From Onthophagus taurus (Eukaryota; Arthropoda; Insecta; Coleoptera; Scarabaeidae), in NCBI RefSeq assembly GCF_036711975.1, contig NC_091973.1, forward strand, positions 19,468,001-19,532,000: a stretch of DNA of 64,000 bases, in the 5' to 3' direction. Positions 25,826 to 40,649 of this stretch are shown here, piece after piece (within the stretch, counting starts at the first letter, position 1; each line of letters begins with the position of its first letter). The translations under genes were made by a program, and so were the position numbers. The notes beneath the pieces are model-generated. The model ran no database searches and was not told where the DNA came from. It saw only the letters and a list, made by a program, of their open reading frames with translations.

Positions 25826-27949
25826 ATTTAAATAAACTTTATTAACATTTCGGTGGTAGTATTAAAATGAATATTTTCTTTTATTAAATTAAATAAACTT
25901 TATTAACATTTCGGTTTAACAACTTTACATTTCACAAGTTTATCAACTTTCTAACGTTTTACAATGTCGATGAAATCCGCTGGATTCCTACGTTTTTACA
26001 AAGTCGATGAGAACATTCTGATTTATTAAATAACAACTAAGTTTCGCTTAAAATTATTCAATATTGTAATGACCCCACGCTAAAGTTTTGATCCCATCAG
26101 AATTAATAAATTTTTTGGAATCGTTTGGTGAAAGAACTAATTTATTTTGAAGAATGGTAAATATGTTATGATTGAAACTTTTAAATAATAATTGTTTTTT
26201 AAGTAAAATAGTTTTAGATGTTAAGCAATCGTTATAATGATCGAAAGAAATTCTATTTTTTACTACAGTTTTTTTACACCTTTCGATTTTTTGGTAACCC
26301 AACCATCTAGAACCCGATTCGCGTGCATTTTTGATCGTAAACCGATAAAATCAGTCATAATTTTACTAGCATTCTCATCCTTCATAAGACCTAATACAGC
26401 CTTATTTTGAAGAGAAATCTTAAATTGGTTATCAGGACTATAGTTTGATGTATCAAATCTATCCAAATTTAATTTAACATCCTGATAGACATCATCGGTG
26501 TTAATGAGTACGGTAAAGCTGTCGGTGTCCATGTAACACAAATTAATTTTATCGATGTATGTTGGTTTTAAAAAGTCGTAGTAAAATACGTACATTAATA
26601 ATTTTGATAATTCCAAAACTGTAAAACCAATGTAAATAGGCTTATCATAAACCACATTAAGCTTTTCCATATCTATAGCCGAAAAATGTTCAGTAAAAAT
26701 TTTTATACTTTTAAAATTTAATTTTGCGATTAAACTTCGAGCACCAAGTTTTGGTCGACCTCCTTTACCTTTACTACGCACATCATTCCAAGTGTTAATC
26801 AATCTTACATCTACTATCTATCGTCATCTACCTAACGTTTTCTATGGTCTTACCAAATATAGTATTGTTCACTAATTTGAAAAAATCTTTTTCGAAATCA
26901 TTTTTAGATGCCTGACGTAATTTAGTATTTATATCAATGTAAGGTTTAAGCCAAGCTGATTGTTTAAAAGATAAAACTCTATTGATTCTCTTAATGATAA
27001 GACCATGGGTTGGTTTTCTGTAATGAATAATGTAATTATTCTTTTGTTTTAAATTGGGGATTAATCTTTTTTCGCTTTTATGCTTACAACCGGGTGGGAG
27101 TATGTTTTCAGCTAGGAAAGGAAGGTCATTATGTATGTCATGTAAATGTTGTGGATAATCAATATCCACATCTAAATTATACCCAAAATCGGAAAAGTCG
27201 GGGATATTGTTAATGTCTAAATTTTAATTTCTTCTTTCCTCAACCACTTAAATTCGGAAAACGGAATACATTGTGACATAGCCCAACCGTACAAATTATT
27301 TGCATCCCAATACATTAAATATTTCAATGATAAATTAGGGTCATATTTATCCAACATATATTTATTATTAGCTTTAGCATGACGTAAAGAACATTGCGAA
27401 ATACCACCGCGGATACCTTTTTTAATGAAGTGTAATTTTTCAATATCCGCCGGAATTCCAGTTTAATTGTAGTAAATTTCAACATAGCATCCCAACTAAG
27501 TCCAGATGCTGCGTAATAATGTGCTGGATCTAAACCATATGTTTTAAAACAAACGCTTCTAAACGATTGAAACACATCAGTCTTTAGATAAAGATCTGAA
27601 TAATCTTTTATAGTTTTACAGTTAAATGTTTTCCAAACATTTTGAGCATGTTGATACTCTTCATCAGTTATATCTTCAAAATTTAACTTATTAAAAAAGG
27701 CATTCTTAGGTGGTAGTGATGAATCTTCTAATTTCTCAAATGATGTTATGTAATTATAGGGGAATATACCTTTTTTCGTTACAAATTTAAACTGTTCATT
27801 ATCGGGGAAACATTTTTTTATGTGAACAAAATCATTATCTGTGAGATTTTTAGACAGTGAATCGAGTGAAGATGCCATGAACCTAAACGTGTCTATGAAT
27901 CTTTGTAATGGACGGTAAAGTATTTGTAGTTGGCGAATGTTGCACAATA

Positions 27950-28350
27950 ATTAATCAAGTCAATATACTCAAAAAAACGCACAAGTATGCCTACTTGTGC
28001 GAGTAGTGCGATATTCGCCAATTCAACAAATAAATTGTGTTTGATTTTATATTATAGAATATAATATATTAAAGGAAGAGCTTAAACATTACACTTAATT
28101 TAATAAAAATTTGATTATGAGGAACTTGACCGTCAACCTTATCCATACCACGAACAGGAATTTTTTTACTAAAACTAATGTATTTTTCTTTATTATTCGG
28201 TAAAACTTCTATACCATACTCATCCAATTCAACCAACTCTTTTACGAATAGATGAGAATCATAACCACTGAAATTGTGGAGAAATATGGGGAAATAATTA
28301 GGAATTTTAATATTAAGATATGCATATGTAATGTGCTGGACCCCGATATT
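27950..28350. other. Non-coding stretch inside the polymerase remnant, with hairpin
   Basis: No reading frame of note. A perfect short inverted repeat, CGCACAAGTA-TGCC-TACTTGTGCG, lies at about 27985-28010. The right part from about 28110 resembles degraded polymerase coding sequence. Confidence 0.4.
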
Positions 28351-29652
28351 TACCGCTTATATGACAGTGATCGTGGACTTTGTAATTATTTTCATCTTTT
28401 TTGAAAATGTAAGAGGTAACATTGGTTTCACAGTTTTAAAATATTTATTATAAATCGGTTCAACATCTCGAAGTAACATTAAAATAAAAACTCTAGAGCA
28501 ATCTAAGCCAGTGTAAGTTTCAAATTTGTTAAAATCAACACCATCTATGTTTGAAACAATATAATAAGCAAAACTATAGGGAATGTGTTCCTCAACCTTT
28601 TCGGTAAACGATTTAGATGAATTGGGTTCACAATTATCTATAGGTTTCAAAACAGACTCAAAGTCTGCATAAATAACAAACGGTACAATCTGGGTATTTT
28701 TGTAGTTGTTAAACTCTAAAATGTTTTCGTTTATATAATTTCCTAAAAAATTTGGCTTCTGTTTCAACTTCTGCGATGGTAAAATTGTTTTTATATGATT
28801 ACAATAATTTTTTTGATGATTAACTAATTTTCTATTATTTTTTTTGACTTATAAACTAATTCATAGACATTAATGCTTATACCATTTAATTCTTCAATTT
28901 TAGCTATATCTTTTAAATTAACTGGAAATTTAAAGGGTAGGTTTAAAACCTGACTGTAATGTGGGTAGCTAGATATTCGATCCGAATGTCCATTCGCGGG
29001 ATGATGGGCTGCCGCATGTTTATTAACAATCTTTTTCGGTAGACGTATGTACGATGAACCGGGTATTGGTTGGAAATTATTGAAGTTTAGTAAAAGATGA
29101 GAAATTGAGTAAAATGACCAACCAGAACCACGTTCCTGAAACTCTTCCGCTTGAGCCATAATATCTCCCATCATCTCATCGTAAATCTCTTCCAAAATTG
29201 TAGCTGTTATGATTTTAAATTTCGTATTAAAATTTTTTTCGGACACTATCATGTCTTCTTCACCATTTTCTTCATTAAATTTTATAAAATTAGATAGTAG
29301 TTCCATCTGTGTTTTAACTGAACCACTTAATGTAATATGGTTGTTAATAAGTGTAATAATCGTTTCTCGCAATCGTGGAAGATAGGAAGATATATCACCA
29401 TCGGGTTGAACTTTACTAATTTTATAGCTGACAACCCGATTCTTAAAACATGAAGCAATTTTTTCCACACCATCTTCAATAATTGTTGCATGATTTGTGC
29501 GAAGATGTGTTTGTAAAGTGAAGGAAAGGACTCACCACAAATCTTACACGCTCTCAATAGAGATGCTGGTGTTGAAGAAGTTGATGGTAGCGATAGCGAT
29601 GATAATTCATCCTTCTTAAAAGGTTGAGATGGTGCTTGACGAGATTCTTTAA

Positions 29653-30182: not shown

Positions 30183-30312
30183 TGGCGACCCTGCCAGTTG
30201 TGTTCATAGTGATACACAGAACAGCGTAAAAAAAAATAAATAAAAAAAAAAAGAAGAAGAAGAAAGAAAATATGGGAAAGCAACAATCCAAAGAAGTTAA
30301 AGAAGAGATAAT

Positions 30313-31364
30313 AGTAGTGTAAGAATGCCGGTTCTAGAGCGGAAGTTGCTCCTGCTGCTCCTGCGGTGACGTCACATCTCAATGTATTAGGTATAGGGGG
30401 GGATACCAACTAAAGTTTGGGGGAAAAAAATTAGGTTGGTATTAAAAGTAACTAGAGATCTAGGGATTTTTAGAAAATTAAATAAAAAAATTTAAATACA
30501 ATGGCGCCACCTAGATTTGAGTGGTGTAAGTAGGACTGAATTATGCGCACTCTGGTGTGTGGTGGATAAATAAAACACAAAATTAATAAATAAAAATTAA
30601 TATTATATTTATTTTAAAACACAATTTCTTTTCTTCAAATTTTTTTTTACCATCAACCCTAATATATTTAAACATATTAAAGACACTGAACCTCTGATGA
30701 TCGAAGATGCATCTTTCATCGCTGTGGTTGTTGTAGGTTGATCTTGTTTTGCGGAGGTTCCTCCTCCTTTCTTAGGATTCTTAACTTTAAAACATACTTT
30801 AGGATCTGTCTTCAACCGGAGTAGTTGATAATGAAAATTATTTATTTTTCGAATATCAGCTGGAGATGATGCTAATGTAGTATGTAGTAGTAGTAATCTC
30901 TAAGGTTTCAGCTGAAGGTGATGCAGTAACTACTACGGTTGTTTCTCCTTCTTCTTCTTCTCCGCTATCGCACAATGTTGTCGTAATAAAAAGAAAGAAG
31001 AGGAAGACCGTTGTACTTTGACGTTGTAAATTGTACTAAACATTTTCTTTTATATCGTGATTTACGAACTAGACGAATTAGCAGCGGTTAAAAACGAACT
31101 GAATCGGGTCTTTCGAGTGCGGCGGTTGTTGACGCGTTAACGAATCGCAGGAAATATGCGGTAGGAAATGTGCGAAGATTAGATAAGAGGAAACTCGCTC
31201 GCAGACGATGAATAAGAATAATACATTTAATAAAAAAAAATAATATATTTAATGAATAAAATAAATTTACCTGACGGACTGTTACATTTTTAAAATTTAA
31301 ATTTGTTGAGCGCTTAAAGGGTGTCTCCCGTCGCTTGAATGCGCGTGTGCAGGAAATAGGAATA
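30313..31364 (+). repeat. Left terminal inverted repeat of the Polinton
   Basis: It is the inverted partner of 39256-40328. Within it, minus strand 30609-30815 is open and encodes a Lys/Thr-rich peptide ending in a hydrophobic segment (SIIRGSVSLICLNILGLM), preceded further upstream by an A/T-rich part with Thr/Ser-rich coding character. The mirror copy is in the right repeat, so any gene here is present twice. Confidence 0.9.
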
Positions 31365-31766
31365 AATTTTATTCAAATGTAGTAGTATTGTTGGTTGCCT
31401 AGCTCATGACGCGCCACCTGGCGGTGTAACGATGGATAGAGTTGTTGGTTGCTTAACTCGTGTGACGTCACTTAGCAGGCGGTAGACAGTGGAACGCACA
31501 TCTGTTGAGCGATAAATAGCGCGCTTATAGCTATAGGCGTTCTGGACCAAAATCCCATAAGATTTAACATTGGGGTTCAAAAGTACCCTTTTTATCCCCA
31601 CCACTATCTCCTTTCGAGGTTCTGGCTACGCCAACATTTTAAATTCGATCAATCAGAGCGCAGCATTCTCCAAGAACCACCTTTTGGCGGGAAATTTGAA
31701 TGAGGCTATCTAGATCGACAGGCTCAATGCAAATAATATATATGACGTGTTTAAACTGGAATAAAT
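31365..31766. promoter_or_regulatory. Polinton intergenic region upstream of the PPP1R15-like gene
   Basis: About 400 bp with no gene of its own. A TATA-like AATATATATGAC lies about 30 bp before the ATG at 31767, so this is a plausible promoter for the gene that follows. Two similar phrases, TTGTTGGTTGCCTAGCTC and TTGTTGGTTGCTTAACTC (about 31390 and 31442), form a short direct repeat. Confidence 0.4.
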
Positions 31767-31961
31767 ATGAAATCGGTTCGATTTAAGGCGGAGATTGAGA
31801 TTTATGAAGTAGAGTGTGATGATGTACATAAAAGAGCAAGAAGCGGGCGGGAATGGTTAGAGGCGGTAATTGATAGACAACGATTTCAAAGACGTATTAA
31901 AGAAATTGAACGAATTCTTGACAAAATATTGCGTGAAAAATTGTTAAAAATGAATGAATAA
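31767..31961 (+). CDS. PPP1R15 (GADD34)/ICP34.5-like PP1 regulatory protein of the Polinton
   Basis: The 64-residue protein is almost entirely the conserved core of PPP1R15 proteins. It has a VRF motif at residues 4-6 (the RVxF site that docks protein phosphatase 1), alternating hydrophobic residues IEIYEV, then ARSG at 24-27, Trp30, and DRQRFQRRI at 36-44. From memory of human GADD34 (KVRF ... ARQGPWEQ ... DRSRFARRI) the VRF-to-Trp spacing and the Trp-to-DRxRF spacing are the same. In the known family (GADD34, CReP, herpes ICP34.5, African swine fever DP71L) this core brings PP1 to phosphorylated eIF2alpha and restores translation under stress or infection. The gene has its own TATA-like box and an AATAAA at its stop. 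Activity here is inferred, not shown. Confidence 0.8.
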   Translation: MKSVRFKAEIEIYEVECDDVHKRARSGREWLEAVIDRQRFQRRIKEIERILDKILREKLLKMNE

Positions 31962-32292
31962 ATTAAACATAATAAAATACATTGTATTAATTATTTTAGT
32001 TTTAATATATAGTTGTATAAAACGTGCATATAAGTTAAATGTTATGTATGGTTGAATTAAATTCTATCCCCACCACCACCACCACTACTACCACAACAAC
32101 CAGTCTCATAACCCCATGGAACATACTTACTTATTTACTGAGAATGCTTATCGCAAAATACTTGGGAAACGTTGATGCACAAAAGAAATGTTTAAACAAA
32201 ATATATGATTTGAAGGAGATAAGTATACTACTAAAATAAGGGTCAGATAACATATTACAAAAATTGCTTTATTTAAAAAAATCTACATACTA
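31962..32292. other. Polinton intergenic stretch with (ACC)n run
   Basis: AT-rich sequence containing an AATAAA signal for the gene to the left, an (ACC/ACT)n microsatellite at about 32068-32100, and the end of the integrase gene to the right. The 66-codon frame at 32039-32239 is a microsatellite translation and is not considered a gene. Confidence 0.5.
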
Positions 32293-33201
32293 CTACACAA
32301 TATCTGATTTCTTAATCCAACTTCTTTCATCTATTCCAAACCACTTGACGTACATTCTGTTTCCTTTCCGTTTTAGAATCTTTTCAATCAACTGTATGTC
32401 AGGATAATGAGTCCGTTGTAATTCTTCAGTGTAGAAAGCTCCTTTAATGTTATCACCTTTCAAATCTTGTAATAAATACGTCACTGGATTACTATATTGA
32501 ATCTTAACAATTTTAAAAACTTCATTGCTCCAGTTAGGAGTATACCCTTTGGTGAACACACCACGATGTTTCGATATTCTTACAAAGTCATTCAAACGAA
32601 ATTTTATGGGTAATGTTTGATTTTGATAATGTATTTTCCTATTATAAACAGTACGCAATAGCTTTTCCTCATCTGCCTCTATTGGTTTCATGCCTGTAGT
32701 GGAATGCTTGCGGGTATTATATGTTAATAAAATTAAAAGATTAAAAGATCCCTGCACACTAAATTCTTTCCACATTAAACCTTTTAAAGTTCTATTTAAA
32801 CGTTCAACGATAGATGCTTTTAATGAGCTAAACGTAGAGTAATGATTAATTTTTAATTTACTCATAAGTGAGATAAAATCTTTATTATAAAACTCTTTTC
32901 CTTGATCGGTTTGAAGGTTTTTTGGTGCGTTTGCATCCTTTAAAATACTTTTCATTGCTTTAGTAACATCTTTACCCGATTTAGTTTTTACCGGAACAGC
33001 CCATGCATATTTGCTAAAGACATCAATTACAACGAGTATATAACGATAACCACTATTTTGTCGTGCATAAGGTATCATCTCTACTAAATCAGCCTGGTAT
33101 AAATCATTTATCCCTTTAGTAAGTACATGTCTCCTTTTAAAATGTATTCGAGCAGGTTTATGAAGTTCTTCAGCTAATTTTCTTTTAATATCAGAGGACA
33201 T
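32293..33201 (-). CDS. Polinton integrase (retroviral-type) with chromodomain
   Basis: The 302-residue protein has the D,D35E-type core: QADLVEM near residue 38, LQTDQGKEFYN near 97-107, and the Glu in SIVERLNRTLKGLMWKEF near 133. A beta-rich C-terminal region (FRLNDFVRISK) follows, and then a chromodomain-like end (IEKILKRKGNRMYVKWFGIDERSWI, shown here in part). The enzyme joins the element's ends to target DNA and makes 6-bp duplications, which fits the GATAAT flanks. The start overlaps the next gene upstream by 28 bases. No zinc-binding HHCC is seen in the annotated frame, which is usual for short Polinton forms. Catalytic residues look intact. Confidence 0.92.
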   Translation of the reverse strand: MSSDIKRKLAEELHKPARIHFKRRHVLTKGINDLYQADLVEMIPYARQNSGYRYILVVIDVFSKYAWAVPVKTKSGKDVTKAMKSILKDANAPKNLQTDQGKEFYNKDFISLMSKLKINHYSTFSSLKASIVERLNRTLKGLMWKEFSVQGSFNLLILLTYNTRKHSTTGMKPIEADEEKLLRTVYNRKIHYQNQTLPIKFRLNDFVRISKHRGVFTKGYTPNWSNEVFKIVKIQYSNPVTYLLQDLKGDNIKGAFYTEELQRTHYPDIQLIEKILKRKGNRMYVKWFGIDERSWIKKSDIV

Positions 33202-33539
33202 GTTACTACGATTTCAACAAACAGTGTATTAATCGTCGCAGTAGGAGATGGAATAAATCTTACTCTATCACCTTTCTTCAATTTGATACCCTTCCCATTT
33301 GAGCTATCATAAATCCTATTGTTTACTATAAAAGTGGTGTCCGATGGCTCAATAGTGATAGAGTAAATTTCTCCTGATTCAATAGGAAAAATATAATATT
33401 TTTTTAAATTACTCAGCGCATAACTATGTCCAGCTTTCCCACCAGTCAAAGAAATATTCAAATAAGAATAATGGTTATGTTCTACTGAGGAGGCGGAGGA
33501 GGAGGAAGAAATGTGATGTCCGAACTTGTGGATAGTCAT
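33174..33539 (-). CDS. Polinton small beta-rich protein, function unknown
   Basis: A 121-residue product with a Ser/His-rich start and a region of alternating polar and hydrophobic residues that suggests beta strands (YSLNISLTGG-like, IFPIESGEIYSITIEPS, VRFIPSPTATINTLFVEIV). It overlaps the integrase gene by 28 bases and lies directly downstream of the charged protein, so the three may share a transcript. A minor virion or spike role is possible from the neighbourhood. I do not recognise the family. Confidence 0.6.
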   Translation of the reverse strand: MTIHKFGHHISSSSSASSVEHNHYSYLNISLTGGKAGHSYALSNLKKYYIFPIESGEIYSITIEPSDTTFIVNNRIYDSSNGKGIKLKKGDRVRFIPSPTATINTLFVEIVVTCPLILKEN

Positions 33540-33566
33540 AACTAAAATGATGAATGTATTGTAGGT

Positions 33567-34739
33567 TTATACAATTATATGAGCTTCTCGTAACTCTTCT
33601 GTAATACTATTAATTTCATTACCATGTGACGTATTACCGGCAAGCTGAGAGGCTATTAAAAGTTTTAATCTATTTACTAATTCATTAGGATCATCCCAAT
33701 AAATAAAATTTGACCGTTGATTATTGTACTGCTGCTGCTGCATGAGACCTTCACCAGTTCTCATACGAACAGGAACGCTTTTTACTCTGCTCCGTCGTAC
33801 AACTCCTTCCGTTGCATTTAAAACAGGTGCAATTATTTGACGATACTTGTCCGACTTGTCACCCATAATTTGTTTGCTTTTATCTTGGTTTTTGTTTAAT
33901 GCTGCTGTTGTTTTTAGTATTTCAACGTAATTCTTTTGATCGTCACTAGTATATTGTTCTGGTTCCCTCTTGAAAATTAGCTCATACAGACCTTTCGTAC
34001 CCTTATAAGTTTTATTTGCAATGGTTATATCATTCGTTTTACTACTAAAGGATATTTCACTATCTCCAATGTAATATTTATCAGTTAAAATATTAACACG
34101 AACTCCCTTGTTGCTAGAATCGAATTCATTGTTATCATCTCTTACATAACCCTCAATGTAGGATCTTGTTAGAGGAGCAAATTGTTCCAAATATAAGAAA
34201 AATGATTCTTCATTAATATTCATAGTTTCTGGTAATGGAGATTCATCTGCTGCTGTCGCTGCTGCTGCTGCTGCAGGTGGTGATGTTTGCGTTGGTTGTG
34301 GTGGTGGTGATGGAGATGTTGCAAAAACATCGTCATCGTCATCGCTTAATATTGATATTGTTGGTGATTGAGGCGCTTGTTGTTGTTGTTGTTGATGAAG
34401 TTCTGGTAGACGTGATGCTTGTACTGCTTTTGATACTCTTCTTTTCTTTGTAGGTATTACTGTTTTAAATTCTTCTTCTTTAACTTCCTCCGATTTAAGC
34501 TCTTCCTCCTCCTCTTCGTCCTCCTCCTCTCCCTTCTTAACTTTAATACGATGTTTAATTGTAGAAATTATTTTTTCTAAAGGGGTTGTTACTGCTTTAT
34601 ATTGCTGTTGAAGCAAATGTTCAGATTTATGCTTCCTTGCTTTTAATTTATCCAATTTCTTTTTCACATTTTCTCTTGTTTTAATAAGCTTTCGTGTTAA
34701 TTGTTTTGAATCCATGTTTTCTGTACAATGAATGAACAC
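33567..34739 (-). CDS. Polinton large charged protein, likely virion-associated, function unknown
   Basis: The frame gives 390 residues; the second Met (MDSKQLTRKLIKTREN) is the likelier start. It has a basic coiled-coil N-terminus (about residues 10-65), then an acidic Glu-rich run, a nuclear-localisation-like KKRR, Gln- and Ala/Pro-rich linkers, and a folded C-terminal half (EESFFLYLEQFAPLTRSYI ... ILTDKYYIGDSEI ... GTKGLYELIF). The C-terminal half resembles an unnamed protein conserved among insect Polintons, often encoded beside integrase. No enzymatic motif was seen. Confidence 0.65.
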   Translation of the reverse strand: MFIHCTENMDSKQLTRKLIKTRENVKKKLDKLKARKHKSEHLLQQQYKAVTTPLEKIISTIKHRIKVKKGEEEDEEEEEELKSEEVKEEEFKTVIPTKKRRVSKAVQASRLPELHQQQQQQAPQSPTISILSDDDDDVFATSPSPPPQPTQTSPPAAAAAATAADESPLPETMNINEESFFLYLEQFAPLTRSYIEGYVRDDNNEFDSSNKGVRVNILTDKYYIGDSEISFSSKTNDITIANKTYKGTKGLYELIFKREPEQYTSDDQKNYVEILKTTAALNKNQDKSKQIMGDKSDKYRQIIAPVLNATEGVVRRSRVKSVPVRMRTGEGLMQQQQYNNQRSNFIYWDDPNELVNRLKLLIASQLAGNTSHGNEINSITEELREAHIIV

Positions 34740-34786
34740 TTACTGACTAATGCATGTGCTTACTGTAGAGTTTTATTAGAACTGTT

Positions 34787-34975
34787 CAAGTCGGCTTTAA
34801 CTGATCTGTTTTATCCGACCGGTTTTAACCGATCCGTTTTATTCGACCGGTTTTAACCGATCCGTTTTATCTGACCGGTTTTAACCGATCCGTTTTATCC
34901 GACCGGTTTTAACCGATCCGTTTTATCCGACCGGTTTTAACCAATCCGTTTTATCCGACCAACCGCATTTATCGG
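34787..34975. repeat. Tandem array of a 28-bp unit, about 6 copies
   Basis: The unit is approximately CGATCCGTTTTATCCGACCG followed by GTTTTAAC. It is repeated head to tail with few differences. It sits between two minus-strand Polinton genes and overlaps the very end of the PLA2-like gene, directly upstream of the charged-protein gene. A regulatory or purely slippage-derived role are both possible. Confidence 0.85.
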
Positions 34976-35340
34976 TTGAAACACCGATACTTTTTCGGAT
35001 TCTCCAATCCGAAACCCAACTTTTGTTTTACTTTCATCGCGTTAGTAACAAACCATGCGTTAGCTTTTTCACCAATCGAAGAATCTTTCGCTAATACTCT
35101 TTTCCATGCTTCTGCAGCTAATACTTTATCTGCTATATGTCGATTGTGTAAATCTGTGTATTGTGTATAGGCTAAATCATGACTTTTACATGCTCTATCA
35201 AGGTCATTAATGCCAGGATCTCCACGTGCTAAGCGTTTCATGAGATTTGTCCCAGGTCCACAGAACTGATAGCCGGGTAAATGCAGCTCTCCACCTGTTC
35301 GTATCACTAACATGACTGATATAGAAACATACACAATCAC
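34969..35340 (-). CDS. Polinton phospholipase A2-like protein (parvovirus VP1-type)
   Basis: The frame gives 123 residues. The core LPGYQFCGPGTNLMKRLARG holds the YxGPG-type calcium loop. It is followed by DLDRACKSHDLAYTQY, with the HD catalytic pair, and a helix with DKVLAAEAW that supplies the second Asp. This is the layout of the PLA2 domain of parvovirus VP1 unique regions, which lets incoming particles breach the endosome. The tail is basic (KVKQKLGFGL, NPKKYRCFNR). PLA2-like genes have been reported in some Polinton and adintovirus genomes. It lies next to the packaging ATPase. All key residues appear present. Confidence 0.82.
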   Translation of the reverse strand: MIVYVSISVMLVIRTGGELHLPGYQFCGPGTNLMKRLARGDPGINDLDRACKSHDLAYTQYTDLHNRHIADKVLAAEAWKRVLAKDSSIGEKANAWFVTNAMKVKQKLGFGLENPKKYRCFNR

Positions 35341-36133
35341 AGTATTATATAGTAATGAAACCCATTACGATATCTACCATTGTTCATATCGTCCTCCTTA
35401 CTAATTACAAAAAATCCGAATCTATCTCTCCAACACATTGAACACATTTTCTTAAAGACGTTGAATTTCATATCGGGTATTACATGATCGTTATAAATAT
35501 GTCTTAAATTTAGATCATCTTGTTTGAAAAGTATTAAAAAGTTTGCATTATCACGTATTAAATGCTTTGGAATATGCGTGAACTCTGACATAAATAAAAA
35601 CTGTCTATTGCCTTATGTCGTCCCATACAAAAATAATCACGAATAATTGATTGTTTATCGCATGCTACATCATCAAATATAAAAACCGAATCTTCATTCG
35701 CTTTGGAAGGATGCATTATGTCATCACTACTGCTATACTCATAATATCCTAAACCTTTTATAGGCTGTAGTAATTTTCTCAAATATTCATATTTGCTTTG
35801 ATACAATGACTTTGAATACACATACACATTTTTAAAGGATAGTCCATTAGGATCCTGTAATAAGCTAATTATCAGATTTGTTTTACCAGAGTTAGAAGGT
35901 CCGGATATTATGCAACGTAGATTATTTGGAAATAAATAACTATGCTTTTTGTTTTGAGGTGATTGATTATTATTATTAAATTGTATTGTTACATCATCAA
36001 CATTTAATGTGTAAGGTTGTTTTATCACTTTCATGTTTATTGTATAACTAACTCTTATATCAGTTTGATTTTGAATATATAATGTTCTAATTTGTCTGTT
36101 GACCATTGAAGTGATTATCAATATCATCAACAT
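35337..36133 (-). CDS. Polinton genome-packaging ATPase (FtsK/HerA type)
   Basis: A natural start is MKVIKQPYTLNVDD near 36035. The Walker A motif is ISGPSNSGKTNLIISLL, and the Walker B-like region is DSVFIFDDVACDK. The sensor-type stretch CMGRHKAIDSFYLCQSS and the C-terminal block IPKHLIRDNANFLILFKQDD complete the fold typical of Polinton, adenovirus and virophage packaging motors, at about 230 residues. The frame ahead of the start runs into the 130-bp repeat. The gene looks broken, with about one break. It is divergently placed from the plus-strand capsid genes. Confidence 0.85.
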
Positions 36134-36375
36134 TTAATGTGTAAGGTTGTTTTATCACTTTCATGTTTATTGTATAACTAACTCTTATATCAGTTTGATT
36201 TTGAATATATAATGTTCTAATTTGTCTGTTGACCATTGAAGTGATTATCAATATCATCAATATTTAATGTGTAAGATTGTTTTATCACTTTCATGTTTAT
36301 GGTATAACTGACTCCTATATAAGTCTGAATCTGAACATATAATATTCATTTGTCTGTTGACCATTGAAGTGATTG
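35992..36375. repeat. Three tandem copies of a 130-bp unit at the divergent gene start
   Basis: The phrase ATTTAATGTGTAAG recurs at 36002, 36132 and 36262, and TGTCTGTTGACCATTGAAGT recurs at the same spacing. The first two copies are almost identical and the third has drifted. Each unit carries the ATPase start and the sequence ahead of it. The array lies between the minus-strand ATPase and the plus-strand core-type gene, where a two-way promoter is expected. Confidence 0.9.
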
Positions 36376-36376
36376 G

Positions 36377-36727
36377 ATGATCATGAAGAAAAGAGCCAGT
36401 GGAAAAGCCATTTCTTTTAATAGAGCCGTTAAAAATGCTAAAATAAAATTAAAAGAGTCAAGCACTAATGATTTGAAATCTGCTGCAAAGTTAGCTTTAC
36501 GTGCCGTAAAAGGTATTGTCAAAAAGAAACCTCGTTCTAGAATTATTACAATTCCGAAAAGCGGTGGTATCCTTCCGCTCATTCCAATTTTTGCTGATTT
36601 AAGTGCATTAGGAGGTTTAGCAGGTGGCACTGCTTCCGTTATAAGTGCTGTCAATAAAGCGAAGCAAGCACAAACGGCCCTCAAGGAAAGTCAAAGACAT
36701 AATCAAACGATGGAATCAATAGCTTAG
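36377..36727 (+). CDS. Polinton small basic core-type protein (adenovirus pVI/pX-like position)
   Basis: The 116-residue product has a very basic N-terminal half (KKRASGKAISFNRAVKNAKI, KGIVKKKPRSR) and a hydrophobic Gly-rich patch GGILPLIPIFADLSALGGLA, followed by a helix (AVNKAKQAQTALKESQ). This layout is common to a Polinton protein encoded just before the protease, thought to be a minor core or membrane-active protein. It may start at the second Met. The sequence right after it still shows family-like coding character. Identification is by composition and position. Confidence 0.65.
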   Translation: MIMKKRASGKAISFNRAVKNAKIKLKESSTNDLKSAAKLALRAVKGIVKKKPRSRIITIPKSGGILPLIPIFADLSALGGLAGGTASVISAVNKAKQAQTALKESQRHNQTMESIA

Positions 36728-36830
36728 GTAAAGGTCTATATTTAAAACCATATAAAAAAGGATTAGGTGTTTTTTTAAAGACACGCCAAGAAAAACCATA
36801 CAACAGCAGAAAGCGCTAACAAACGTTGAC

Positions 36831-37169
36831 TTGATGCGTTATGTAAAAATATTGGGAATACCAGAGTTTAGAGGGATATTCATGCGAGATAAATTGCCTA
36901 TACGTATTAATAATAATGAAAGAGGTATTATTAACTTGGATAGTGTGAAAGGGCCTGGCACTCATTGGACAGCCTATATTAAGAAGGGAAATATAATTAC
37001 TTATTTTGATAGTTTTGGTAATTTAAAACCAAGTAAAGAAATTGTGAACTATTTCAAGAGTGCTGGAAATAATGTAATTATTAAATATAATCACCATCAA
37101 TATCAAACCTATAACACAAGTAATTGTGGTTATTTATGTTTAAATTTCTTACTATCGGACGCATTATAG
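36831..37169 (+). CDS. Polinton maturation protease (adenain type, cysteine)
   Basis: About 112 residues. The catalytic His lies in GPGTHWTAY (near residue 43), an acidic residue in TYFDSFG, and the catalytic Cys in SNCGYLCLNFL (near residue 99). This is the order of adenain/Ulp1-type proteases, which cleave capsid and core precursors. N-terminal LGIPEFRGIFMRD is typical of the Polinton version. It overlaps the next gene's annotated frame by about 45 bases. The length is usual. Confidence 0.9.
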   Translation: MMRYVKILGIPEFRGIFMRDKLPIRINNNERGIINLDSVKGPGTHWTAYIKKGNIITYFDSFGNLKPSKEIVNYFKSAGNNVIIKYNHHQYQTYNTSNCGYLCLNFLLSDAL

Positions 37170-37894
37170 CTTCAACAATCAAAGGATGTGGACATCTGGA
37201 TTTAGTAGGAAAAACATCTGTTCTAACAGCAAATTACCACCCTGCAATAGAACTGAATCCTAATTATCAATATGAACTGGCACTTGTAAGCTTTGATGGT
37301 TACAACTCAATTCCAAATATTGATGAAACAAACAATTGCTTAAAAATAGATAATGTATTGATAGCACTACCAACAGGATCTTATGAATTAATACACATTT
37401 CGAATGCTATTAATAAACAACTTAAAGAAAAGAATATTAATGGTGTGACCTTTAGCCTACAAGCAAATGAGGATACGCTACAAGCAGTGATCACATGTAA
37501 CAAAACTATTGATTTTAATATAAACAACTCCATCTCAACAATATTAGGATTTAATAAATCAGATGTACTGGATCCAATAAAATCCCCGCATAGAGCTCGC
37601 AATATTGTAGATATATTTAAAGTAAATTCTATACAAGTACTATGTAGCATAACACATGGAGCTTATCACAACGACATACCTGCGCACACTATCTACTCAT
37701 TTTTCCCTACAGTACCTAAAGGTTATAAAATATCAGAAACTCCCCACAATTTAATATATATGCCTTTGAATACACAAATAATTAATAATATTACCCTTAA
37801 AATAGTTGATCAAAACGGAGTGTTGGTTAATTTCAGAGGAGAAGTCATCAAGATAAGACTACATTTAAAGCTCTCTAGTAATAATGGTTCTTAA
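37124..37894 (+). CDS. Polinton penton-like minor capsid protein (single jelly roll)
   Basis: The frame codes 256 residues, though the first 20 overlap the protease, and the domain proper begins near VLTANYHPAIELNPNYQYEL. Typical blocks are ALVSFDGYNSIPNIDE, ALPTGSYELIHISNAINKQL, and LGFNKSDVLDPIKSPHRARN with the terminal strand FRGEVIKIRLHLKL. These are conserved in the Polinton minor capsid protein predicted to form the five-fold vertex. It stands directly upstream of the major capsid gene, as in relatives. Confidence 0.85.
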   Translation: MWLFMFKFLTIGRIIASTIKGCGHLDLVGKTSVLTANYHPAIELNPNYQYELALVSFDGYNSIPNIDETNNCLKIDNVLIALPTGSYELIHISNAINKQLKEKNINGVTFSLQANEDTLQAVITCNKTIDFNINNSISTILGFNKSDVLDPIKSPHRARNIVDIFKVNSIQVLCSITHGAYHNDIPAHTIYSFFPTVPKGYKISETPHNLIYMPLNTQIINNITLKIVDQNGVLVNFRGEVIKIRLHLKLSSNNGS

Positions 37895-38026
37895 GGTGAA
37901 AGGTTATATAAACCCACGAAATCAAACCAATACTTTTAGTTCTCCTCACACTGTGAAACAGTTAACACCTCAAAACAAACAATTTCTTGAATCATTAGGT
38001 TTACAATTAATAAAATAATATTCAAT

Positions 38027-39136
38027 ATGAGTATCTTAAACGTCTCGGATAAAGTAGAATTTGATAATTCACTCGTACGGATTCAGTATCATAATCATTT
38101 ACCATACTCATCAAATTCGTTTAACAATAGCGATGAAATTCGTATTGCAATTCAACAACAGGACGTTTACACGTTACCAAGTCAATCTTTTATTTACGTA
38201 CAAGGGAAACTATTGAAAGATGACGGAACCGTTGATAAAGATTCAAAATTATCAGTAAATCCGATCGCTCATATGTTTAGTGAAGTACGATTTGAATGTG
38301 GAGGGAACGTAATTGACAGAGTAAGAAATCCAGGAATAGCTAGCACATTAAAAAATCTTTGCTCATTAACAAGATCGGAATACTATCATGCCTCTAACGC
38401 AGGTTTCGAATATCCAAATGTTAAAGTAAATGAAAATAAAGGAGATTTTGATTTTTGTGTTCCCTTGAAATATTTTCTTGGTTTCGCAGAAGATTATAAT
38501 AAAATTTTGATAAATCTCCGTCAAGAATTAGTTTTAGTACGCAGTAATTCAGACAAGAATGTTATCGAAAGTCTTTTACCTAATGTGATAATTACTATTA
38601 ATAAAATAGTATGGAAAGTGCCTCATGTTTCTGTAGCCGATGTTGAACGTTTAAAACTTTTAGAGTACATTGAACAAGGAATTGAATTAGACATGGGATT
38701 TAGATCATTTGATTTACATGAATACCCATCATTACCAAAAAGTAGACAACACACATGGACAATTAAAATATCTACTCAATTAGAAAAACCCAGATACTTT
38801 ATATTAGGGTTTCAAATCAATAGAAAAGATAATCCGTTACGTTCTGCATCACAATTTGACCACTGTAATTTAACAGATATGAAAGTGTTTTTAAATAGTG
38901 AGAAATATCCCTATGAAGCTTTAAATTTAAATTTTAAGACAGGTCAAATTGTAGTTTTATATGAAATGTATTGTAATTTCGCAAAAACCTATTACGATCG
39001 AGAACTTGCAGAACCAATGTTTAACAGAGATACATTTTTAGCACATACACCGATTATTGTAGTTGATTGTTCACGGCAAAATGATATTTTAAATGTTGGA
39101 ACCGTTCCTTTAACTGGTATGATTAATCAAATATAG
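38027..39136 (+). CDS. Polinton major capsid protein (double jelly roll)
   Basis: The product has 369 residues, beginning MSILNVSDKVEFDNSLVRIQ. Blocks typical of the family are DVYTLPSQSFIYVQGKLL, NPIAHMFSEVRFECGG, DFCVPLKYFLGFAEDYNKIL, VERLKLLEYIEQG and RQHTWTIKISTQLEKPRYFI. The length is a little under that of many Polinton capsid proteins (400-600). The fold builds hexon-like trimers in viruses of this lineage. It is the last gene before the right inverted repeat, and the frame is open throughout. Confidence 0.9.
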   Translation: MSILNVSDKVEFDNSLVRIQYHNHLPYSSNSFNNSDEIRIAIQQQDVYTLPSQSFIYVQGKLLKDDGTVDKDSKLSVNPIAHMFSEVRFECGGNVIDRVRNPGIASTLKNLCSLTRSEYYHASNAGFEYPNVKVNENKGDFDFCVPLKYFLGFAEDYNKILINLRQELVLVRSNSDKNVIESLLPNVIITINKIVWKVPHVSVADVERLKLLEYIEQGIELDMGFRSFDLHEYPSLPKSRQHTWTIKISTQLEKPRYFILGFQINRKDNPLRSASQFDHCNLTDMKVFLNSEKYPYEALNLNFKTGQIVVLYEMYCNFAKTYYDRELAEPMFNRDTFLAHTPIIVVDCSRQNDILNVGTVPLTGMINQI

Positions 39137-39255
39137 ATCAGTTTGTAAACAACTCTATGTCCATAACATTATGTTTTAATAAAGTAGATGAACTGGATTT
39201 TTATGTAAACAAAATAAAGTTAGTCGTATTTAAGTTGGCTGAAATTTTATTACAA

Positions 39256-40328
39256 ATATTCCTAATTTCCTGTGCATGCGCATTCAAGCGACGCCGACGG
39301 GAGGCACGCCTTTAAACGCTCAGCAAATTTAAATTTTAAAAATGTAAACAGGTAAATCAGGTAAATTTATTTTATTCATTAAATATATTATTTTTTTTTT
39401 TTTAATTTTATTAAATGTATTATTCTTATTCATCGTCTGCGAGCGAGTTTTCTCTTATCTAATCTTCGCACATATCCTACCGCATATTTCCTGCGATTCG
39501 TTAACGCGTCAACAACCGCCGCACTCGAAAGACCCGATTCAGTTCGTTTTTAACCGCTGCTAATTCGTCTAGTTCGTAAATCACGATATAAAAGAAAATG
39601 TTTAGTACAATTTACAACGTCAAAGTACAACGGTCTTCCTCTTCTTTCTTTTTATTACGACAACATTGTGCGATAGCGGAGAAGAAGAAGAAGGAGAAAC
39701 AACCGTAGCAGTTACTGCATCACCTTCAGCTGAAACCTTAGAGATTACTACTACTACATACTACATTAGCATCATCTCCAGCTGATATTCGAAAAATAAA
39801 TAATTTTCATTATCAACTACTCCGGTTGAAGACAGATCCTAAAGTAAGTTTTAAAGTTAAAAATCCTAAGAAAGGAGGAGGAACCTCCGCAAAACAAGAT
39901 CAACCTACAACAACCACAGCGATGAAAGATGCATCTTCGATCATCAGAGGTTCAGTGTCTTTAATATGTTTAAATATATGAGGGTTGATGGTAAAAAAAA
40001 ATTGAAGAAAAGTAATTGTGTTTTAAAATAAATATAATATTAATTTTTATTTATTAATTTTGTGTTTTATTTATCCACCACACACCAGAGTGCGCATAAC
40101 TCAGTCCTACTTACACCACTCAAATCTAGGTGGCGCCATTGTATTTAAATTTTTTTATTTAATTTTCTAAAAATCCCTAGATCTCTAGTTACTTTTAATA
40201 CCAACCTAATTTTTTTTCCCCCAAACTTTAGTTGGTATCCCCCCCTATACCTAATACATTGAGGCGTGACGTCACCGCAGGAGCAGCAGGAGCAACTTCC
40301 GCTCTAGAACCTGCATTCTTACACTACT
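39256..40328 (-). repeat. Right terminal inverted repeat of the Polinton
   Basis: It is the reverse complement of 30313-31364 with few differences. It holds a second copy of the Lys/Thr-rich repeat-borne coding stretch (about 39830-40030, plus strand). Confidence 0.9.
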
Positions 40329-40649
40329 GATAATTATAGCTCAATCCGGAAATAGTGGTGGTCAAACATTTGATGTTTCAACGGGTCATATATCCGAAAT
40401 TTTCGGTATAATCGCATTTATTGGTGTTGTTTTAATATTTACGTGTTGCTGCTGTGGGCCGGTGATATATTTGGTACGAGCGAGAGAAAGGGCTATGGAA
40501 TGAAGATTGAAGCGTCATCTTAGCCGAACCCAAGACTTATAAATTAAATTTTCCGCACCAAGCAAGAGATGTGGCCGATTATGTCTATTGAATGTCGGAA
40601 GTGATTGTGACGAGTTTTCGGCATTTTCTTGAAGAGCTGCGTGTAATAC

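Follow-up and report, generated by a model that had tools for sequence, protein, structure and literature searches.

A divergent PPP1R15-core homologue carried by a Polinton-type element of Onthophagus taurus, and its probable role as a minimal PP1 cofactor

The window analysed here, a stretch of 64,000 nucleotides from the beetle Onthophagus taurus, contains a Polinton-type element of 10,016 bp (30313..40328) that ends in AGTAGTG and is flanked by a 6 bp target-site duplication, GATAAT, on the left (30307..30312) and on the right (40329..40334). Its terminal inverted repeats, at 30313..31364 and 39257..40328, are 96% identical over 1,073 columns, with individual pieces at 96–98%. Just inside the left repeat, and in a single copy, lies the gene with which this report is concerned: an intact forward-strand frame (31767..31961) with an ATG start and a TAA stop, encoding 64 aa. 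Convergent with it is the gene for a retroviral-type integrase of 302 aa (32293..33201, reverse strand; PF00665, E = 4.6e-15). Also on the reverse strand are genes for a 121 aa protein (33174..33539), which is 87.7% identical in the element copies L023 and L024, a 390 aa protein (33567..34739), which is about 89% identical in the same copies, a protein with a phospholipase A2-like domain (PLA2; 34969..35340; PF08398, E = 2.4e-14) and a packaging ATPase of the Pox_A32 type (35558..36133; PF04665, E = 4.9e-5). The forward strand encodes a relative of a protein of about 108 aa found in other Polinton lineages (36834..37151; tblastn, 53%, 3.6e-35), a candidate minor capsid protein (37124..37894) and the double-jelly-roll major capsid protein (MCP; 38027..39136; PF21738, E = 1.3e-91). 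The candidate precedes the MCP and is 37–38% identical to the corresponding gene of the elements of families C and E described below; it has no Pfam match (best E = 0.21), and we take it to be a putative minor (penton) capsid protein from its position.

The original prediction placed the 64-codon gene inside a Polinton. The inverted repeats, the 6 bp duplication and the integrase, MCP, PLA2 and ATPase genes bear out this location, with one refinement: between 30313 and 40328 there is no match to the DNA polymerase (PolB) of families B or C. On its gene content, the element is therefore best described as Polinton-type without PolB and not as a canonical autonomous Polinton. Directly outside the left terminal repeat lies a broken PolB relic (26263–29468, reverse strand), the main pieces of which are 56–77% identical to the PolB of family B.

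The window protein, whose close copies form family A, carries KSVRF at residues 2–6, an RVxF-type PP1 docking motif (V4-R5-F6) at the N-terminal end of the core, followed by A24-R25-S26-G27, W30 and D36-R37-Q38-R39-F40-Q41-R42-R43-I44. The frame with its VRF, ARSG-x2-W and DRQRFQRRI motifs is thus as first described. The claim that the VRF–Trp and Trp–DRxRF spacings equal those of human GADD34 was likewise right: V to W is 26 residues and W to F is 10, as in human V556–W582–F592 (human residue numbers, here and in the residue table, are from PMC5429092 and PMC8500838). When V4 is placed on V556, the W, D, R, F, R, R and I of the window protein fall on positions 582, 588, 591, 592, 594, 595 and 596. 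According to the structural literature on human PPP1R15A, V556 belongs to the PP1 docking motif and R578 inserts into PP1 (PMC5429092, PMC8500838); W582A and F592A abolish activity (PMC5429092); F592, R595 and R612 contact actin, and R587, D588, R591 and R594 face eIF2alpha, with D588 and R591 contacting or approaching it (PMC8500838). At three of the human positions the window protein has another residue: Ser at R578 (W-4), the arginine of ARSG being at W-5, Ile at R587 and Leu at R612 (W+30), the second actin contact. Since R612 has been reported to be less important than F592 and R595 (PMC8500838), its equivalent was not treated as defining. An AF2 model of the protein (pLDDT 73.5) consists of two helices that include the VRF segment; a fold search with it against the PDB gave no match below E = 5.8, and the model is uninformative as to the bound form.

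A phmmer search of the PDB sequences with the window protein returned DP71L of African swine fever virus (ASFV) as the best match (E = 1e-7, residues 2–60) and as the sole row with E below 1 to contain a stretch that passes on its own; the next rows, designed armadillo repeats at about 1e-3, contain no individually passing stretch. The Pfam profile PP1c_bdg (PF10488) gives the window protein 12.3 bits (E = 0.14), under its gathering cut-off of 26.1. Its relatives in the same genome score higher: 24.4 bits (E = 2.7e-5) for family B, which is 49% identical to A, and 24.6 bits for family E, represented by the core sequence of L018, are both still below the cut-off, and 28.1 bits for family C is above it. 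The profile match that was looked for to the PP1_c_bdg/PPP1R15 family thus exists for the relatives, with C over the cut-off, but not for the window protein on its own. Family A is tied to these relatives by B (49%, 3e-20) and by profile score, as a profile that draws on families C, E, F and G alone gives the window protein 31.3 bits; the maximum among shuffled sequences was 15.3 bits, and none of the 4,986 that were scored (of 5,000 made) reached the window score. A loosely spaced version of the motif occurs in one of the 610 stop-to-stop frames of at least 40 aa in the window, namely the gene at 31767..31961. Against the PDB sequences, family B matches DP71L (1.2e-5) and PPP1R15B (8e-4), family C matches DP71L (2e-5), PPP1R15B (2.7e-5) and PPP1R15A (6.6e-5), and family G matches DP71L weakly (0.005). 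The DP71L match, the shuffle test and the score of family C together uphold the predicted PPP1R15 homology. The window gene is read as a divergent PPP1R15-core homologue, under selection, in a Polinton-type element.

The core is not confined to the window. About 133 places in the 291 Mb (290.8 Mb) genome carry it, some of them fragments, in a count for which most of the largest family (E) was assigned by score only. TTAGG arrays occur in this assembly at a single internal place, which does not decide the identity of the host. A protein search of the genome with A gave 59 rows, comprising 42 A places, 15 B places (about 49% identical) and two fragments of one degraded A place. The full 64-codon frame is kept in 33 of the 40 A loci L031–L070 and VRF in 39 of them; the frame is intact in 12 of the 15 B loci, where the docking motif reads VKF in 11 and IKF in one. 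Elsewhere it is KVKF (C), KVTF (F), KVRF (G) and KVRI (E). E is the most numerous family, and its KVRI weakens the case for PP1 docking there. The Pfam profile search of the genome (E <= 10) gave 88 places, which were assigned by score, profile range and copies read as 63 E (of which seven were read), 12 B, 8 C, 4 F and one G, the place on which family G rests. Family C has six places above the cut-off, one of them only together with its neighbours, and two degraded ones. A residue table was drawn up with a single sequence per family, six in all, and every one of them has equivalents of W582, D588, R591, F592, R595 and I596. The equivalent of R578 is absent in A and B, and also in C, which passes the Pfam cut-off; that of R587 is absent in all but C; C, E, F and G have Lys, Asn or Thr in place of R594; and the R612 position holds Leu in A, Glu in B and Arg in the other four families.

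The surroundings of the core differ between families. In nine A elements, copies lie in opposite orientation about 8.6 kb apart, towards both ends; in two of these (L068 and L069) the left copy is frameshifted, and in the two paired elements that were fetched whole (L023 and L024) the R15 gene is within the inverted repeat. One further element end has two tandem family-A copies 423 bases apart (C6:27857408 and C6:27857831). In B (L021 and L022), the core lies 33 bases from a gene for 242 aa, which is followed by PolB. In E, F and G (L018, L091 and L092), it is just upstream of the PLA2 and capsid genes. In C (L019 and L020), one further gene separates the core gene from the MCP that it follows, and genes for the ATPase, PLA2, capsid and PolB are all present in the element; a third C locus with context (L027) has only PolB pieces upstream, and in the relic L088 the core appears, judged by eye, directly after the end of the MCP. 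The C protein itself has 222 aa, consisting of the R15 core and a second domain of about 150 aa; the domain has no Pfam match, and the AF2 model of the protein (pLDDT 36.6) is unusable. In family C (L009:1504–2169) this domain is joined to the core; it also occurs without the core, in the Logan protein P0002, perhaps a truncated call, and as a relic in L018 (5295–5801). The MCP of A shares 42% identity with that of the E element and 41% with that of the C element, and these are therefore separate lineages. Within this one genome, the core thus recurs in other Polinton-type elements, in several lineages and gene positions.

Among A elements with capsid genes, L023, L024 and the window element have no PolB match. 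Six B loci of about 10 kb (L021, L022, L026, L028, L029 and L030) have no capsid match; L026 has a weak integrase match. A two-part system in which B helps A is possible on this distribution of genes; in the B loci tested, the terminal repeat of A has no match. In a count that used 80 of 106 PolB rows, themselves drawn from the 105 candidates scored out of 523, the places with a PolB no more than 15 kb away number 6 of 42 for A, 9 of 15 for B and 2 of 8 for C. These 523 were the first-look candidates for one PolB segment, and by these matches the genome is very rich in PolB-type elements. The name PolB comes from a PF03175 match on the C relative (3.5e-6) and from the homology of the B protein to the C PolB (36%), together with motifs that we take to be those of PolB. 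The B protein has no PolB match in Pfam, NCBIfam or the PDB sequences; in L022 (162–4106), C2H2 zinc fingers lie at its N terminus, it contains an Endonuclease_7-like segment, and DANNLYG stands where SLYP would be expected.

Outside this genome, neither A by itself nor the A+B alignment found a relative in protein searches. For the 222 aa C protein, two Logan proteins were the only outside matches. One is 100% identical over 222 aa and, being so, is possibly from the same species; the other, of 149 aa, covers only the second domain and may be a truncated gene call on its 909-base contig. Scans of viral contigs with A, A+B, C and four capsid queries found no relatives, and insect Polintons may be absent from that collection.

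Selection on the coding sequence was measured in 36 of 41 A sequences, after the broken L025 and L067–L070 were dropped (L052, L057 and L059 were kept with their stop codons skipped), and in 12 of 15 B sequences, without L028, L029 and L078. Pairs of distinct sequences give pN/pS values of 0.24 for A, with 21 distinct sequences, and 0.27 for B, with seven. When each distinct change is counted once, it is 0.39 in A (17 silent, 28 replacing and four stop changes) and 0.32 in B (four silent and six replacing, ten changes only). Between A and B, pN is 0.32 and pS 0.71, which is near saturation; among E, F and G, the ranges are 0.27–0.32 and 0.53–0.74. In a cross-family comparison over 32 codons, 14 of 15 pairs have a pN lower than their pS, and B versus G shows the reverse. 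The 21 distinct A copies differ by a mean of 4.3% in the coding sequence, with 3.7% at positions 1 and 2 and 5.4% at position 3, a modest excess of third-position change. Their flanks differ by a mean of 40% in the 300 bases upstream (median 55%), which partly reflects different and poorly alignable repeats, and by 19% downstream (median 10%). The coding sequence is conserved while the flanks diverge, and the copies show purifying selection.

The sequences show homology to PPP1R15, contact residues that are conserved, copies under purifying selection and a core that recurs across several Polinton-type lineages, and we read the 64 aa gene as a minimal PPP1R15-type cofactor. With considerable confidence, we propose that it recruits host PP1, probably with G-actin, to phosphorylated eIF2alpha and so undoes translational arrest; the binding of PP1, actin and eIF2, the benefit to the element and the kinases opposed are inferred. 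The VRF motif would dock on host PP1, and Trp30 and the following helix (R39, F40, R42 and R43) would bind G-actin and cradle phosphorylated eIF2alpha. PP1 held in this way would remove the Ser51 phosphate from eIF2alpha, and protein synthesis, that of the element's own products included, would continue while host stress kinases are active. In insects the opposing kinases would be PERK and GCN2, PKR being a vertebrate enzyme. The likely role would be to sustain translation during expression of the element.

The literature on the system bears on whether so short a protein could act in this way. Combined in vitro with PP1 and G-actin, the R15 core removes phosphate from the N-terminal domain of eIF2alpha, and large mammalian R15s have been contrasted with viral or invertebrate counterparts that have a core of about 70 residues in common (PMC10998612), a description that the 64 aa gene fits. 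DP71L, which is of similar size, recruits PP1 and lowers phosphorylated eIF2alpha (PMC5346070). Given the in vitro activity of the core and the size of DP71L, the 64 aa gene could therefore be enough. Sufficiency of the core alone is contested: the extended human R15A is reported to act on the eIF2 trimer at roughly ten times the rate of the core (PMC10998612), and another group reports that R15 needs its middle region to bind substrate, ascribes strong actin binding to short C-terminal pieces and doubts the actin step (PMC8633803).

Three other readings have to be weighed. A basic, Arg/Glu-rich helix might resemble the PPP1R15 core by chance, and both the sub-threshold Pfam score of the window protein and the appearance of designed armadillo repeats at about 1e-3 in the PDB list would suit this. 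Nevertheless, a chance helix would have to account for the shuffle test, a DP71L match that runs as one stretch, a family C score above the Pfam cut-off and the motif spacing, and in our judgement it is already refuted at the level of sequence; we give it almost no weight. A more substantial proposal is that one element recently caught a fragment of a host PPP1R15 gene and amplified it as a passenger with no function for the element. Recent amplification is indeed certain because many copies are nearly identical, and the within-A signs of selection are modest. Against a passenger, however, roughly half of the residues differ between A and B and pN is well below pS, the same relation of pN to pS holds among E, F and G, and the core sits at different positions in lineages whose MCPs are only about 41% identical. 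Moreover, none of the places read among the 88 profile matches (Pfam search, E <= 10; most E places unread) looked like a host donor gene, a search that an intron-split host exon could escape. We therefore hold the passenger reading to be very improbable.

The remaining alternative accepts the descent from PPP1R15 and the binding of PP1, and supposes that PP1 is retargeted to another substrate, for example a capsid, packaging or nuclear protein, instead of eIF2alpha. It could draw on the loss of the R578 and R612 equivalents in A and B, on the placing of the family C core within a longer protein with a second domain, and on the published view that substrate binding lies outside the core (PMC8633803). 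Retargeting would leave unexplained, however, that the residues kept in six families contact actin and eIF2alpha and do not belong to the PP1 motif only; we consider it unlikely, although less so than a passenger. A PPP1R15-type cofactor directed at phosphorylated eIF2alpha remains the preferred reading.

Among the papers listed in the literature searches there was no report of PPP1R15 in Polintons, in agreement with the original claim of novelty; the original adintovirus description could still mention such a gene. No report was found for adintovirus together with eIF2, and the listed papers on Polinton together with eIF2 concern giant viruses and a sea anemone. A term search of two adintovirus papers, PMC11071296 and PMC8363768, gave no GADD34 or eIF2.

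It has long been asked whether Polintons should count as transposons or as viruses. A dedicated antagonist of the eIF2alpha stress response would be directly useful to an entity that must make much protein in a resisting cell, and a viral lifestyle of these elements is favoured. We see roughly an even chance that several deep lineages of arthropod Polintons repeatedly carry, under selection, an accessory gene for a PP1-recruiting cofactor that cancels the stress response, whether the core stands alone, lies within or next to the terminal repeats, or is joined to a second domain, and that living or recent elements accordingly have an infection cycle like that of viruses. If so, these elements would pass through a stage at which viral genes are strongly expressed while host translation is arrested. 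A review of PP1 in virus infection names herpesvirus gamma34.5, DP71L and protein 7 of the coronavirus TGEV as GADD34 orthologues (PMC10807198), and the carriers of PPP1R15 mimics would widen beyond the three groups named there, herpesviruses, African swine fever virus and TGEV. As the protein is short and occurs in several lineages of one genome, PP1 binding and the dephosphorylation of eIF2alpha could be assayed in vitro.

Among the known systems, PPP1R15A (GADD34) and PPP1R15B (CReP) have the same core as family A, and the V–W–F spacing of human R15A equals that of families A and B; mammalian PPP1R15 proteins, however, exceed 600 aa and have membrane and eIF2gamma-binding parts that the 64 aa protein lacks (PMC10998612). 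The short form of DP71L (70–72 aa) is, like A, a stand-alone core of similar size with VRF, Trp and RFQRRI, and the LSAVL stretch that it needs (PMC5346070) aligns with the hydrophobic helix end of A. DP71L differs in a V-to-W spacing six residues shorter than the 26 of A, and the A gene is carried in many copies by an integrating, Polinton-type element. ICP34.5 (gamma34.5) of HSV is longer and multifunctional. It is likewise a viral PP1 recruiter related to R15A (PMC8633803). Its gene too lies in inverted repeats, and nine family-A elements have a copy towards both ends. With Polintons/Mavericks and adintoviruses, finally, the window element shares inverted repeats, a 6 bp duplication, an integrase, a double-jelly-roll MCP and an ATPase, and it differs from Polintons and adintoviruses in being without PolB and in carrying an R15 gene.
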